From NCBI GenBank assembly GCA_003661385.1, contig QMWA01000042.1:1-10891 (forward strand): a stretch of DNA of 10,891 bases, given 5' to 3'. A model generated the notes under the pieces. The model was given only the letters and a program-made list of their open reading frames with translations, was not told the DNA's origin and ran no database searches. The DNA comes from Thermoproteota archaeon. GTDB taxonomy: Archaea; Korarchaeota; Korarchaeia; B14-G2. Shown here in pieces: positions 2,710 through 10,891 of the stretch. Made by a program: the position numbers and the translations under genes. Position 1 is the stretch's first letter. The number at the start of each line of letters is the position of its first letter.

Positions 2710-3489
2710 CTACTTTAATTTGACCTCTATATCGACCCTAAACTTATAGATTCTTGGTGCATATGTAGCAACTCTTCTTTTGCCAATTACCCCCCATTCC
2801 ACATTTAGCTCCTCCATTTCTTCACTAACTTTATTAACAAGCTCCTCTCCACTGTACCCACTTAGCCCATATAGGCTGATGACTCCCCTCTCTTTGAGGG
2901 TATCTACTGCAAGATCTAAGTATAATGCTCCCTCAAGAGGAAGAGGCATAAGTACTCTATCAAAAACTCCCTTCAAGAAGGGGCATACAAACCTCACGTC
3001 TCCTAGCACTGCTCTCACATTCGGCAGCTTATTTAGCCTTATGTTCCTGACCATGTACTCCCATGCTACTCTGCTTATTTCTACGCCAACAACTACATCC
3101 ACCTTCCTCCTCTTGGCTATTGCGATGCACATCGGTCCAACTCCTGCGAACATCACGAGAACCTTCTCGCCACTTGAAACCATCTCAGCTACAAGCTGCC
3201 TTTCATGTGCTTCTCTAGGCGAGAAGTAGACTCTCCTCGGGTCTAATGCCAGCTTATATCCGTGTTCTATGTGTATGACCTCTGTATCTGGGTCTCCTGC
3301 GATGACCTCATATTCCCTCAGTCTGTACTCTCCTGTTCTCGGAGAAGCTCTTAGCAGCACACTCTTCACATGCCTGTACTGCTCTATGAGCTGTTTTGCA
3401 TAGCTTTCAGCTTCAGATCTGCTTTCGCCTCTGGCTAAGCTTATTATCGCTACCGCTTTCTGTCTAGAGCCTACTATATCTACTCTCAC
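2710..3489 (-). CDS. TRM5/TYW2-family tRNA methyl- or aminocarboxypropyl-transferase
   Basis: Class I AdoMet enzyme of the TRM5/TYW2 (Met_10-like) family, which modifies position 37 of tRNA (m1G37) or builds wyosine derivatives. Visible: the family signature DPRRVYFSPREAHERQLV (83-100), AdoMet loop FAGVGP (114-119), acidic Glu137 in VGVEIS, Asp164 in LGDVR, and MPLP (181-184) where TRM5 enzymes usually carry an NLP catalytic motif. At 259 residues it is shorter than full Trm5 with its N-terminal D1 domain and nearer the size of Taw2/Trm5a-type proteins. m1G37 methyltransferase, Taw2 and the bifunctional Taw22 type therefore remain open. The GTG start at 3489 overlaps the ATPase stop as GTGA, with a partial SD (GGAG) close by. 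Confidence 0.82.
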   Translation of the reverse strand: MRVDIVGSRQKAVAIISLARGESRSEAESYAKQLIEQYRHVKSVLLRASPRTGEYRLREYEVIAGDPDTEVIHIEHGYKLALDPRRVYFSPREAHERQLVAEMVSSGEKVLVMFAGVGPMCIAIAKRRKVDVVVGVEISRVAWEYMVRNIRLNKLPNVRAVLGDVRFVCPFLKGVFDRVLMPLPLEGALYLDLAVDTLKERGVISLYGLSGYSGEELVNKVSEEMEELNVEWGVIGKRRVATYAPRIYKFRVDIEVKLK

Positions 3490-4539: not shown

Positions 4540-5814
4540 CTATATCTTGAGTGTCTCTCCCTCCTTAGGTGCTATGCTTGTTGTACCATAGGTATCCTCT
4601 ATCTCGCTGGCGAACTTGTTTGCTTCCTCTCCATGCACGCAAAGGACCGCCTTAGGCCTCGTTTTCTTGATTAGGTACTTCATGCCTGTTACATCTGTGT
4701 GAGCTGAGAAATCAAGCTGCCTTACCTGCATGTTCACGTCTATTAGATCCCCTTCTGAGAGCTCGAGCTTCCTCTCCTCTATGAGCCTTCTGCCATTAGT
4801 GTCCTCTGCTTGGTAGCCTACGATAGCTACTGTCGACTCTGAACTGTCATGTAGCTTAGCTACATAATAGACCACTGGCCCCCCCTCCAACATACCAGAT
4901 GTTGTTAGCACAACGCTTGGCGACCCTGCTATCTTGTCTCTCATCTTCTGGTCTCTAACGTAGTTGATTTTAGAGAGTGCTTGTCTTAGTAGCCTGTAGT
5001 CCCTTACCCTATTTGGGTATCTAAGTGTTATCTTGACTATGTTTCTGGCCATTCCGTCCATGAAGACAGGCCAGGATGTGCCAGCTACGTAGAGCACCAT
5101 GCTTATTTCCTCTAGCCTAGCGAGAGCGAAGCCCGGTATGATTACAGTCCCTCTCCTGCTGCAGGTCTCATCTATTATCTGCTTAAGCTCCCTCTCCTGG
5201 CTGCTTCTAGGCGGGTGTTTTCTTGTAGCATATGTGGTCTCCATTATGAGGACATCCACTTTAGGTAGCTCCAGAGTCATTCCCTCGACTAGCCGTGTGT
5301 CTATGAAGTTGAAGTCTCCTGTGTAGAGTATGGTCTTGTTCCTGTGTCTGATGTAGAACATTGCTGAGCCTGGTATGTGTCCTGCGCTCAGCGCCCTAAT
5401 CTCTATGCCTCCTCTGAGCTTTACGCCATGCTCGTACTCTACCTCCCTGTAGTTCCTATGGAACTCTAGTATCTCCCTCTCTCCATACCTAGCTTCATAG
5501 CTGTTTTTCTTCGCAACCCTGAGAGAGTCCCAGAGGAGTATCTCAGTGTACTCTCTAGTGAGGTCTATTCCAAGCACCTTAGGGGGTTTCTTCTTCATAA
5601 GCAGCGGGATAGCTCCTGAGTGGTCTAAGTGGGCGTGTGTCAGTGCAACATAGTTTACTTTGCCATCTGGCTCCTCAGGGTATAGAGGAGGCTTTCTTCT
5701 CCGTATTTTGATCCCATAGTCTAGCAGGACTCTGGTATCTCCAGCTGTAAGTTGGATTGCTGCGCGCCCTACTTCACGGCATCCGCCTAACGCCTTTATC
5801 TCTAACCTGCTCAT
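4540..5814 (-). CDS. Beta-CASP metallo-beta-lactamase RNase (archaeal CPSF-like)
   Basis: A 424-residue metallo-beta-lactamase/beta-CASP nuclease of the archaeal CPSF2-like size class, a zinc-dependent RNase acting in RNA maturation or decay. Metal-site motifs: HAHLDH (60-65), His146 in AGHIPGS, Asp167 in TGDF, and terminal His394 in CVHGEE. Beta-CASP motifs: motif A acid at Glu192 (METTYATRKH), the IIPGFALARLEEI segment (225-237), TTSGMLEGGP (304-313), and the motif with His372 in FSAHTD. There is no N-terminal KH extension, unlike aCPSF1. The FALAR segment differs slightly from the common FALGR. The ATG at 5814 has a GGGAG SD with 6-base spacing. It begins the minus-strand cluster and is divergent from valS. 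Confidence 0.92.
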   Translation of the reverse strand: MSRLEIKALGGCREVGRAAIQLTAGDTRVLLDYGIKIRRRKPPLYPEEPDGKVNYVALTHAHLDHSGAIPLLMKKKPPKVLGIDLTREYTEILLWDSLRVAKKNSYEARYGEREILEFHRNYREVEYEHGVKLRGGIEIRALSAGHIPGSAMFYIRHRNKTILYTGDFNFIDTRLVEGMTLELPKVDVLIMETTYATRKHPPRSSQERELKQIIDETCSRRGTVIIPGFALARLEEISMVLYVAGTSWPVFMDGMARNIVKITLRYPNRVRDYRLLRQALSKINYVRDQKMRDKIAGSPSVVLTTSGMLEGGPVVYYVAKLHDSSESTVAIVGYQAEDTNGRRLIEERKLELSEGDLIDVNMQVRQLDFSAHTDVTGMKYLIKKTRPKAVLCVHGEEANKFASEIEDTYGTTSIAPKEGETLKI

Positions 5815-8292: not shown

Positions 8293-9102
8293 ATGAGCAG
8301 CCTAAGGTGGGCAGTCAAAATCTACTATGATGGCTCAGACTTCAGAGGCTATGCAAGACAGCCAACTGGATGTACGGTAGAAGACCACCTCATAGCAGCT
8401 CTGCAGAGGCTTTCTATCATAAAAGCCCCCAGTGAATCCCACTTTATTTCAGCATCCAGGACAGACAAGGGAGCTTCTGCGCTAGGAAACGTTGTAGCCT
8501 TTACAGGGGAAGCTAGCAGCCTAAGGCTTGGCCAGCTTAACCATGAGCTAAAGTGGCGTATAATAGCATGGGCTTATGCAAGAGTTCCAGCTGACTTTAA
8601 CCCGAGGAAGGCAGCCTTGTACAGGAGGTACCTTTATGCAGATTACTATCATGGTGAAGACCTATCTCTGATGTATAAAGCAGCTAATATGGTGAATAAA
8701 GCTGGTGTTGTGAGATTTAAGTCTGGAGGAGCTGGATTAGTGCTTTCTGCTGCTGTGGCTTCCAGCGGGCAAGCCGTGCTGCTCGATGTGAGAGTCAAGT
8801 GGGCGATGAGAGGCTTTATACGAAGGCTTTGGGCTGCAATCAAGTCTGTTGGAGCTGGCAAGGTGACTATCGAGGAGTTCAGTCGCATAATCTCTGGTGA
8901 GCTGGAGTTCTCTTCATTCTCTCCTCCAGATGGGCTTCTGCTCCTTGATGTTGCTCTCCCAATCAAGCTTACAGTAGACAGGTACTCCTTACTTCAGCTC
9001 CTTAAGAGGCTACATGGCAAAATTAGGCTGCATAACACACTACATGTCCTTGCTAGGATTCAGAGAGATTCGCTTGCCCGTGCTATGGCGTCTCTTACCT
9101 GA
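8293..9102 (+). CDS. truA: tRNA pseudouridine synthase TruA
   Basis: TruA-type enzyme that isomerises uridines in the tRNA anticodon stem-loop (positions 38-40 in well-studied members). It is 269 residues, the usual length. It opens with VKIYYDGSDFRGYARQP (8-24), has the catalytic Asp58 in SRTDKGASA (55-63), the YRRYLY segment after it, the C-terminal FIRRLWAAIKSVGAG stretch and the closing SPPDGLLLLDV (TruA APPxGL-like). The middle segment that usually contains the H-D-F motif is shortened and poorly conserved here, so the protein is a divergent member. The ATG is three bases after the valS stop with no good SD, so it is probably translated by coupling. The 3' end overlaps the convergent zinc-ribbon gene by 8 bases. 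Confidence 0.88.
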   Translation: MSSLRWAVKIYYDGSDFRGYARQPTGCTVEDHLIAALQRLSIIKAPSESHFISASRTDKGASALGNVVAFTGEASSLRLGQLNHELKWRIIAWAYARVPADFNPRKAALYRRYLYADYYHGEDLSLMYKAANMVNKAGVVRFKSGGAGLVLSAAVASSGQAVLLDVRVKWAMRGFIRRLWAAIKSVGAGKVTIEEFSRIISGELEFSSFSPPDGLLLLDVALPIKLTVDRYSLLQLLKRLHGKIRLHNTLHVLARIQRDSLARAMASLT

Positions 9103-9481
9103 TTTTCTCGCTGTATATCAGTGTCACCATGGCTTTCCCACCGCATTTCTTGCACTTCTCTTCCTTGCCAACATAGTCTCCTCTCTGAAAGTCCCTTACG
9201 AGCTTTTCTCCGCATTCCTGGCACTCTATAACTATGCTTATGGATTTCCTCTCCTCTAAGGCTGCCCTTCTGGCTTTGACCACCTCAAGCATCTGCATCA
9301 TTACTATGAGGACTGCTGCAAATCCCAACATGGCCCATATGATGTTACGCTCACTCTCTGTTTTAGCTGCTAGTGTAATAAAGAAAAGAGCTATAACCAT
9401 CATTAAACCAACCATCACTAGGGTAGAGAGCAGATATGGCGTTGCAGGTCTTTCTACGCCCTTCTCTCCCAAGCTGCCCAC
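9095..9481 (-). CDS. Two-helix membrane protein with C-terminal zinc ribbon
   Basis: A 128-residue protein not recognised as a named family. It has two hydrophobic segments, about 17-38 and 48-66, followed by a basic, helical stretch (KARRAALEERK) and a soluble C-terminal zinc-ribbon-like module with C87-x2-C90 and C110-x2-C113. The positive stretch after helix 2 suggests the ribbon faces the cytoplasm. The GTG start follows the DUF1512 stop codon with no gap (TAG then GTG), and no strong SD is seen, so translation is probably coupled to DUF1512. The 3' end overlaps truA from the opposite strand. Close linkage suggests that it works with the DUF1512 protein at the membrane; its role is unknown. 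Confidence 0.75.
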   Translation of the reverse strand: MGSLGEKGVERPATPYLLSTLVMVGLMMVIALFFITLAAKTESERNIIWAMLGFAAVLIVMMQMLEVVKARRAALEERKSISIVIECQECGEKLVRDFQRGDYVGKEEKCKKCGGKAMVTLIYSEKIR

Positions 9482-10576
9482 CTACTGGCTTATCCCGATG
9501 GTGTTTCCTATTCCAGCTATTATTACAACATCCCCTTCACTGGTCTTCTTCTTGATGATATCAAGTATCCTCTCTACAACTCTGTCTGCAGCTTCAGCTA
9601 CCTCTCTAGGCATTGCTGTGATGGCTTCTGTTATATCCTCCTTAACCACTATTGCAACCAGTGGTATTCCATATTCCGTTGCTACCGTCTCTATTTTATA
9701 CTTCTCCGGCCCTGGATCGCCTATTGCCGCTCCTATTCCCTCAGCTACCTCTCCTGTTCTCTCTCCCTCTAGCTTTACTGCTGCATCTACCATTATAATC
9801 ATCTTAACCTTGCCATCATGCTCTTTGACGATCTTCTCTACAGCATCCCCAGGCTTGCCCACCTCTCCTCCAGGCCCCTTGGCCTTTATGATGATGAGCT
9901 TTCTGCCGCTAGCCTCTCTCTCGTATGCGATCACGTTCTTCGCTACCTCTCTCCATTTTGAGCCGTTCCCTAGCTTGAATGCAACAAGAGGACCTAAGCT
10001 ATCTCCTATAGGTATGCCTTCTTTGAGGGGTATTAGCGCTCTAAAGTAGCTTCTAGCTATCCTCATTATTTCTGGAAGGTACATGTAAAGCTGTACCATG
10101 TAGAAGTAGTTCTTTGTCTTCTTTGCTAGGAGGAATATGTGCCTGACAACCCTGTATATTATGTCTAGTGCTAGGTTTGCAGCTAGCACGTTCTTCATAT
10201 TCGACCTCTCGGCTTCGCTTGCGTTGACAGCCACCTCCCTGATGAAGTCATCTACCCTGTCTTCTTGGGTCTTAAGCAGGTGCTCAAGCCTCTTTATGAT
10301 CCCAACTGGGTCCATTGACACCGGTTCTATGAGAAAGAACCCCTTTATGGACTTCAGAGCCTTCTTAGCCTTTTCCTCGCTGCAGCCATACCTCCTAGCC
10401 TCCTCTTCAAACACCCTGTCTGCCCTAGTTAGGTAGCTTTCAAGCTGCTTTAGGTAGCTCTGTATCTCTAGCATCCTGTATGTGAGCTGTATTCTCTCAT
10501 TTAGTGGCGTGAAGAACATCAGTGCTATCAATACCCAGAAAAGTATACTCCACACATCTGTCTGGCTGTTTTGCAT
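9482..10576 (-). CDS. DUF1512 family membrane-anchored protein
   Basis: A 364-residue archaeal protein that I recognise as DUF1512 (family of unknown function). One N-terminal transmembrane helix (about 9-25) is followed by a long helical region (27-180) and a soluble alpha/beta domain. That domain has IGDSLGPLVA (190-199), KGPGGEVGKPGDA (233-245), the strand VKMIIMVDAA ending in Asp264, a glycine-rich EVAEGIGAAIG (276-286), and YGIPLVAIVVKEDITEAI (302-319). Motif order resembles the YyaC/Gpr/HybD fold (see findings). ATG 10576 is preferred because GGGAG lies six bases upstream; a GTG at 10591 in the same frame is possible. The zinc-ribbon membrane protein follows directly. Biochemical function is unknown. 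Confidence 0.85.
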   Translation of the reverse strand: MQNSQTDVWSILFWVLIALMFFTPLNERIQLTYRMLEIQSYLKQLESYLTRADRVFEEEARRYGCSEEKAKKALKSIKGFFLIEPVSMDPVGIIKRLEHLLKTQEDRVDDFIREVAVNASEAERSNMKNVLAANLALDIIYRVVRHIFLLAKKTKNYFYMVQLYMYLPEIMRIARSYFRALIPLKEGIPIGDSLGPLVAFKLGNGSKWREVAKNVIAYEREASGRKLIIIKAKGPGGEVGKPGDAVEKIVKEHDGKVKMIIMVDAAVKLEGERTGEVAEGIGAAIGDPGPEKYKIETVATEYGIPLVAIVVKEDITEAITAMPREVAEAADRVVERILDIIKKKTSEGDVVIIAGIGNTIGISQ

Positions 10577-10587: not shown

Positions 10588-10621
10588 ACACATGCTACTA
10601 GTATTCACCCATGAGCATCAG

Positions 10622-10639: not shown

Positions 10640-10891
10640 TTAAGCTTCCCTACAATCCTGTGGCTTCTCTCCCTTCGGCAGAGCATCCTTACCATGCTCA
10701 GCCTTCTCTATTCTCATTGCAACCATATCCAGCACTTTATCAAGCTCCGCTCTCACGACATTATAGGTGGTTTTCGCCAGGTCGTATAGAAGCAGGAAGC
10801 CCATAAACAAGAGTATGATACCTAGTCCTCTGACAATGTAGTCTCCTATGCTAGGCACCTGCCTTAGCAAGGGGTTTACTGCCTCCCATAC
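10640..10891 (-). CDS. Single-helix membrane protein, probably 5'-partial
   Basis: The frame runs open to the right edge. One reading is that the gene begins outside the window. The other is that it starts at TTG 10870, where a GGGAGG lies 11 bases upstream, giving a 76-residue protein. What is visible is one strong hydrophobic helix (about residues 12-28 from that TTG: IVRGLGIILLFMGFLLL), then an amphipathic, charged helix (YDLAKTTYNVVRAELDKVLDMVAMRIEKAEH) that may be a coiled coil, then a polar tail. No domain is recognised. It lies 63 bases upstream of the DUF1512 start on the same strand, making three consecutive membrane-protein genes. Confidence 0.55.
   Translation of the reverse strand, partial: VWEAVNPLLRQVPSIGDYIVRGLGIILLFMGFLLLYDLAKTTYNVVRAELDKVLDMVAMRIEKAEHGKDALPKGEKPQDCREA

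Follow-up and report, generated by a model that had tools for sequence, protein, structure and literature searches.

A membrane-anchored archaeal protein family, DUF1512, with an invariant aspartate pair in a predicted circularly permuted hydrolase-like domain

What does a membrane protein do that was found in every genome searched of an archaeal phylum and whose family has no described role? The question is raised by a gene in a window of 10,891 nucleotides (the whole stretch of DNA analysed here; positions 1 to 10,891 of contig QMWA01000042.1), which belongs to a korarchaeal assembly of 206 contigs and 1.74 Mb. Pfam analysis assigned residues 10-181 of the encoded protein to PF07431 (DUF1512; 8.4e-50, 169.3 bits against a cut-off of 25) and residues 190-362 to PF23542 (DUF1512_C; 4.9e-67, 225.6 bits against a cut-off of 25). 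With both curated cut-offs exceeded, the protein is a clear member of DUF1512/DUF1512_C. The Pfam texts of both entries read 'unknown function', and a literature search found no paper naming DUF1512 and no stated function, fold or permutation. A sequence-only reading had likened the soluble domain to the YyaC, Gpr and HybD proteins on the basis of four motifs (IGDSLGPLVA, PGDAVEKI, MIIMVDAA and GIPLVAIVVKEDITEAI), each of which was found in the protein, and of two acids roughly 70 residues apart, which are Asp192 and Asp264, separated by 72 residues. The features of the gene are as follows; an alternative GTG start is located at 10591, five codons upstream of the ATG.

9482..10576, minus strand: DUF1512 protein, 364 amino acids plus stop, a single open reading frame with ATG start, identified by Pfam and kept in 29/29 searched genomes of the phylum
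10505..10555, minus strand: N-terminal transmembrane helix, residues 8-24 (hydropathy 2.12; helix in the AlphaFold model)
10019..10504, minus strand: helical N-domain, residues 25-186, with invariant P85, P90 and H146 (alignment and model)
9542..10018, minus strand: predicted HybD/Gpr/Pth-type alpha/beta domain minus its first strand, residues 187-345 (model and structure searches)
10001-10003, minus strand: codon of Asp192, motif PIGDSLGPL, aligned with the Gpr DALGP Asp (alignment, hhalign)
9785-9787, minus strand: codon of Asp264, motif IIMVDAA, aligned with the Gpr IAIDAL Asp (alignment, hhalign)
9761..9775, minus strand: KLEGE motif, residues 268-272, with invariant E270 (alignment)
9485..9541, minus strand: C-terminal strand, residues 346-364 (VIIAGIGNTIGI), the proposed permuted first strand (structure rows, profile tests)
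9503..9514, minus strand: GIGN motif, residues 355-358, with invariant G355, G357 and N358 (alignment)

DUF1512_C was present in every genome searched in the phylum (29 of 29) and in one of 14 control genomes (Sulfolobus acidocaldarius). A single-sequence scan of genome contigs returned no relative; an alignment query retrieved relatives and yielded at least 80 loci with DUF1512 among GTDB species genomes. The listed loci come from Korarchaeota-like genomes, Bathyarchaeota, Desulfurococcales, Methanomethylicota, Caldarchaeum, Marsarchaeota, Geoarchaeota and Asgard archaea, among others, and Methanodesulfokora washburnensis is one of the carriers. Conservation was assessed on 75 TACK and Asgard homologues. 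Asp192 and Asp264, whose invariance the sequence-only reading had proposed to check, are identical in 75/75, as are G191, G195, R225, E270, G271, G282, G286, E296, G355, G357, N358 and G361. The C-domain has no conserved His, no His column exceeding 24% in this alignment; the sole invariant His in the 75 sequences is H146, in the N-domain.

The membrane anchor supposed earlier was recovered as one N-terminal transmembrane helix, by hydropathy and in the model. Family-wide, lysine and arginine together number 0.15 ahead of the helix and 2.0 within the 15 residues that follow. Under the positive-inside rule, this charge bias points to an N-out/C-in orientation with the bulk of the protein in the cytosol. 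DUF1512 would be a single-pass membrane protein with a cytosolic C-terminal domain.

AlphaFold2, supplied with the 75-homologue alignment, modelled the whole protein with a mean pLDDT of 94.1 and a pTM of 0.88, and residues 178-364 alone with a pLDDT of 91.8 and a pTM of 0.90. Foldseek against the PDB with the model as query returned peptidyl-tRNA hydrolases (Pth) first (E 3e-5, TM 0.56), then PAC2 proteins, HycI/HybD proteases (TkHycI, TMt 0.61) and nucleoside phosphorylases, which all have the phosphorylase/hydrolase-like fold. VIA-align gave Z 12.6 for CRS2 and 12.1 for Pth (Pth/CRS2 range 11.7-12.6), and Z 10.4 for Thermococcus kodakarensis HycI (2.8 A over 125 residues) and 10.1 for Escherichia coli HybD (HycI/HybD overall about 10-10.6). 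The matches to the predicted model cover 121-155 of 187 residues at Z 10-12.6 and TM 0.5-0.6. It is very probable from the model that residues 187-345 adopt the phosphorylase/hydrolase-like fold, and the fold call made earlier from motifs was upheld by both structure searches. HycI/HybD lie 1-2 Z units below the nearest structures by Z, the peptidyl-tRNA hydrolases; as rows within 1 Z unit count as tied, fold alone does not single out a nearest family, though the fold itself is settled. Gpr structures (1c8b/7c4x) were absent among the 50 structural matches listed, which excludes nothing. A sequence search of the PDB with the 75-sequence profile gave no match.

The last strand of the model (350-355) reads VIIAGIGNT and occupies an unexpected place in the chain. 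In the listed fold rows, the aligned part of the target begins at residue 9 or beyond, past the target's first strand, and that of the model stops short of strand 350-355, so that neither strand is aligned. In Gpr, and in HycI proteins from the same archaeal genomes, GLGN/GIGN is the first strand, and in Gpr the catalytic Asp follows six residues past it. The native DUF1512 chain does not begin the domain with a GxGN-type strand: its GIGN strand comes last. The claim that the motifs occur in matching order did not survive this comparison, the native chain order differing from that of these families.

For hhalign, a construct of the DUF1512_C profile was made in which residues 346-360 were moved ahead of 189-345. 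Against Gpr the score rose from 28.6 in native order to 38.95 after permutation (126 columns). Against HycI, the native profile scored 27.8 over 17 columns only, the profile without its last strand 22.4, and the permuted profile 39.26 over 69 columns. As yardsticks, the known relatives Gpr and YyaC scored 37.9 and Gpr versus HycI 34.4; permuted DUF1512_C is similar to the former and above the latter. The permuted scores against Gpr and HycI were reached by 0/200 column-shuffled strands and by none of 42 other real segments of the protein; a separate earlier set of 100 shuffles gave a top score of 37.7 for Gpr. With the junction untrimmed, the real scores were 34.7 (Gpr) and 34.3 (HycI), reached by 1/150 and 0/150 shuffles, respectively. 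The gain against YyaC depends on junction trimming: 3/200 shuffles reach the trimmed score, and no gain was seen untrimmed. The Gpr and YyaC profiles were built from six sequences each, taken from plasmids and the PDB apart from that of Bacillus subtilis YyaC, whose identity Pfam confirmed.

The permuted alignment pairs Asp192 with the Asp of Gpr DALGP, Asp264 with the Asp of IDAL, and GIPLVAIVV with GVPVIAIGV. By hmmscan, three of the four permuted cases gave a match to DUF1256, located exactly where its first strand lies, and native sequences gave none; all matches were below the cut-off (E 0.003-0.14, at most 17.5 bits versus 27). In this controlled comparison the likeness to Gpr, YyaC and HybD first seen in the motifs rises above chance for Gpr and HycI once the strand is moved. 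A permuted first strand would explain the weak native-order scores against Gpr, YyaC and HybD. We consider it likely that the C-terminal domain has, as predicted, the HybD/Gpr/Pth-type fold in circularly permuted form. Nothing relevant was found in the literature on permutation within the phosphorylase/hydrolase-like fold.

The gene directly downstream encodes a small membrane protein, and methionine aminopeptidase (MetAP) genes recur nearby at other loci:

9095..9481, minus strand: partner gene, 128 amino acids, two transmembrane helices plus a zinc ribbon, unnamed family, directly downstream on the same strand
9143..9223, minus strand: zinc-ribbon part of the partner, C87, C90, C110 and C113 (C87, C90 and C110 invariant, C113 in at least 90% of 41 sequences)
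L051 4015-4917, L085 3995-4912, L094 6507-7421 and others: example MetAP neighbours

A zinc-ribbon gene, mostly with two transmembrane helices and the pattern CxxC...CxxC, lies directly 3' of DUF1512 in 69 of the 80 listed loci, usually with a gap of less than 25 nt, and matched no Pfam or NCBIfam family over the cut-off. It is missing from 11 of the 80, including Hermodarchaeota and several Bathyarchaeota-like soil genomes, and is therefore not obligatory. At one locus (L103 4977-6155) the DUF1512 protein carries a 29-residue C-terminal extension and elongation factor 2 follows 31 bases later, replacing the zinc-ribbon gene. Type II MetAP (TIGR00501) was found nearby in about 45 of the 80 listed loci. 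In Bathyarchaeota, Thorarchaeota, Caldarchaeum and Nezhaarchaeota it is convergent and comes right after the zinc-ribbon gene; in Desulfurococcales and Acidilobaceae it is co-directional and lies immediately upstream. The existence of two arrangements suggests, as neighbourhood evidence, more than inherited gene order. Thorarchaeota carry two tandem type II MetAP copies at the locus (L071 6457-7368 and 7414-8325; L111 1684-2586 and 2655-3566). In our window truA and valS occupy the place of MetAP. The window also holds, all on the minus strand, a 76-amino-acid open reading frame with one transmembrane helix and no family match that adjoins the DUF1512 gene upstream (10640-10870), a beta-CASP nuclease of 424 amino acids that matches aCPSF1 only from model position 175 on, a short form lacking the N-terminal portion (4540-5814), and a Trm5/Taw2-group tRNA methyltransferase below all curated cut-offs (2710-3489).

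Taken together, we propose that DUF1512 is a membrane-tethered, permuted, Gpr-like Asp-dyad hydrolase in protein maturation, a reading to which we assign a probability of about 0.5. We predict that the C-terminal GxGN strand folds back alongside the loop of Asp192, and it would rebuild the edge of an active site from Asp192, Asp264, Asn358 and Glu270, all four invariant in the 75 homologues. The two Asp would act as a Gpr-like catalytic pair, and the protein may be a membrane-tethered endopeptidase, or a related amide or ester hydrolase, on cytosolic or nascent polypeptides. The zinc-ribbon protein is a likely partner, and the MetAP neighbours hint at a role in protein maturation. The chances that the C-domain is a hydrolase of some kind appear evenly balanced; a peptidase would be the most likely kind, but that assignment is more tentative. 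Of the sequence-only reading as a whole, the predicted fold, the invariant Asp pair and the single transmembrane helix stand, and the native order needs correcting.

Could the same fold be present without permutation, with the C-terminal strand as an extra strand at the edge of the sheet and the GxGN likeness due to coincidence or convergence? Covariation (75 sequences, Neff 58, a weak signal) placed the C-terminal strand parallel with 223-230 (ranks 4-12 of 316) and with 257-264 (ranks 4-13), strands 2 and 3 of the sheet, over the settings tried, and ranked first an antiparallel pairing of strand 348-355 with 277-285 that canonical sheet order leaves unexplained and that speaks for an added edge strand. 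The antiparallel pairs, again a weak signal, are 279-354, 281-352 and 283-350 (window 9728-9742 and 9515-9529). The top covarying pair, S193-I362, reflects mostly one clade split (G-I versus S-V) and was given little weight. Against an unpermuted domain stand the precise omission of the target's first strand from the listed alignments with one model strand left unmatched, the invariance of GxGN in 75 sequences, and the shuffle and segment controls, and we regard it as improbable. A nucleoside phosphorylase or nucleosidase-type enzyme is very improbable: MTAN and PNP rows do appear at Z 10.0-10.4, but these targets of 223-245 residues need long insertions for about 145 aligned residues, and by hhalign the Asp motifs fit Gpr and not the nucleosidases.

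The strongest rival, which we judge somewhat unlikely, keeps the permuted fold and drops the enzyme activity, leaving a membrane scaffold or assembly chaperone. PAC2/PbaA proteins have this fold and are non-catalytic, and PAC2-type structures are among the Foldseek matches (5un0 at E 6e-4, 3mnf, 5y9n); moreover, no complete known catalytic set or substrate was identified for DUF1512. Its difficulty is that D192, R225, D264, E270, E296 and N358 are invariant polar residues of buried type that look like a catalytic centre and overlap with the aspartates of Gpr. A peptidyl-tRNA-hydrolase-like esterase at membrane-bound ribosomes would agree with the top Z of Pth and CRS2 and with an aminoacyl-tRNA synthetase and MetAP as neighbours, and the bacterial Pth1 type is, to our knowledge, missing from archaea. 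His20 and Asn114 of Pth1 nevertheless have no counterpart, Asp192 standing by range at the expected place of His20, and profile similarity was absent (score 14.8, with one Pth sequence tested), which makes such an esterase quite improbable.

On the preferred reading of a permuted Gpr-like hydrolase, a family filed as of 'unknown function' can be given a fold, a set of candidate active-site residues, a topology in the membrane and two possible partners, and its function becomes testable. If true, a natural permutation in this fold that is fixed family-wide and coupled to a membrane anchor would be a useful case of domain rewiring. A wider extension, which we hold to be doubtful, is that permuted Asp-dyad peptidase, zinc-ribbon subunit and MetAP link form a TACK/Asgard-wide membrane module, an uncharacterised co-translational protein-maturation system in the lineage closest to eukaryotes.

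Among known systems, Pth1 and CRS2 are the top fold match; DUF1512 differs from them in its proposed permutation, in the lack of the catalytic His and Asn, and in having no sequence-profile similarity (to one Pth sequence). From the Pth1 catalytic set of Asn10, His20, Asp93 and Asn114, only N358 and D264 offer possible counterparts for two. The HybD/HycI proteases (PF01750) share the fold (Z 10.1-10.6) and, after permutation, GIGN and the first Asp; genomes with DUF1512 also encode ordinary HycI genes. The metal ligands of HybD are Glu16 (E/D16), Asp62 and His93 (PMC2670836). The third of these, His93, has no conserved counterpart in the DUF1512 C-domain, which is also predicted to be permuted, and a HybD-type metal site is therefore not supported.

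YyaC (DUF1256, PF06866), a protein important in the sporulation of Bacillus and grouped with the HybD-like superfamily (PMC12700454), has TGDSLGPLVG where DUF1512 has IGDSLGPLVA, shares the IDA strand and is weakly matched in Pfam by permuted DUF1512, below the DUF1256 cut-off; native DUF1512 gave no match. It differs in having GTDR in place of GIGN, in being soluble (PMC12700454) and in a score gain that is junction-dependent. Gpr (Peptidase_A25, PDB 1c8b/7c4x) shares the GxGN strand, DALGP against GDSLGP, the Asp of the VDA strand and the GIPVIAIG strand over 126 columns after permutation; neither native nor permuted DUF1512 sequences matched Peptidase_A25 in Pfam. Unlike the soluble Gpr, which acts on proteins of the spore, DUF1512 has a predicted permuted chain order, a membrane anchor and a helical N-domain. 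Two aspartates, in DALGP and IDAL, are essential in Gpr, and hhalign aligns both with invariant residues of DUF1512, D192 and D264. With both Asp kept and the His missing, DUF1512, if an enzyme, would most closely resemble Gpr and YyaC.
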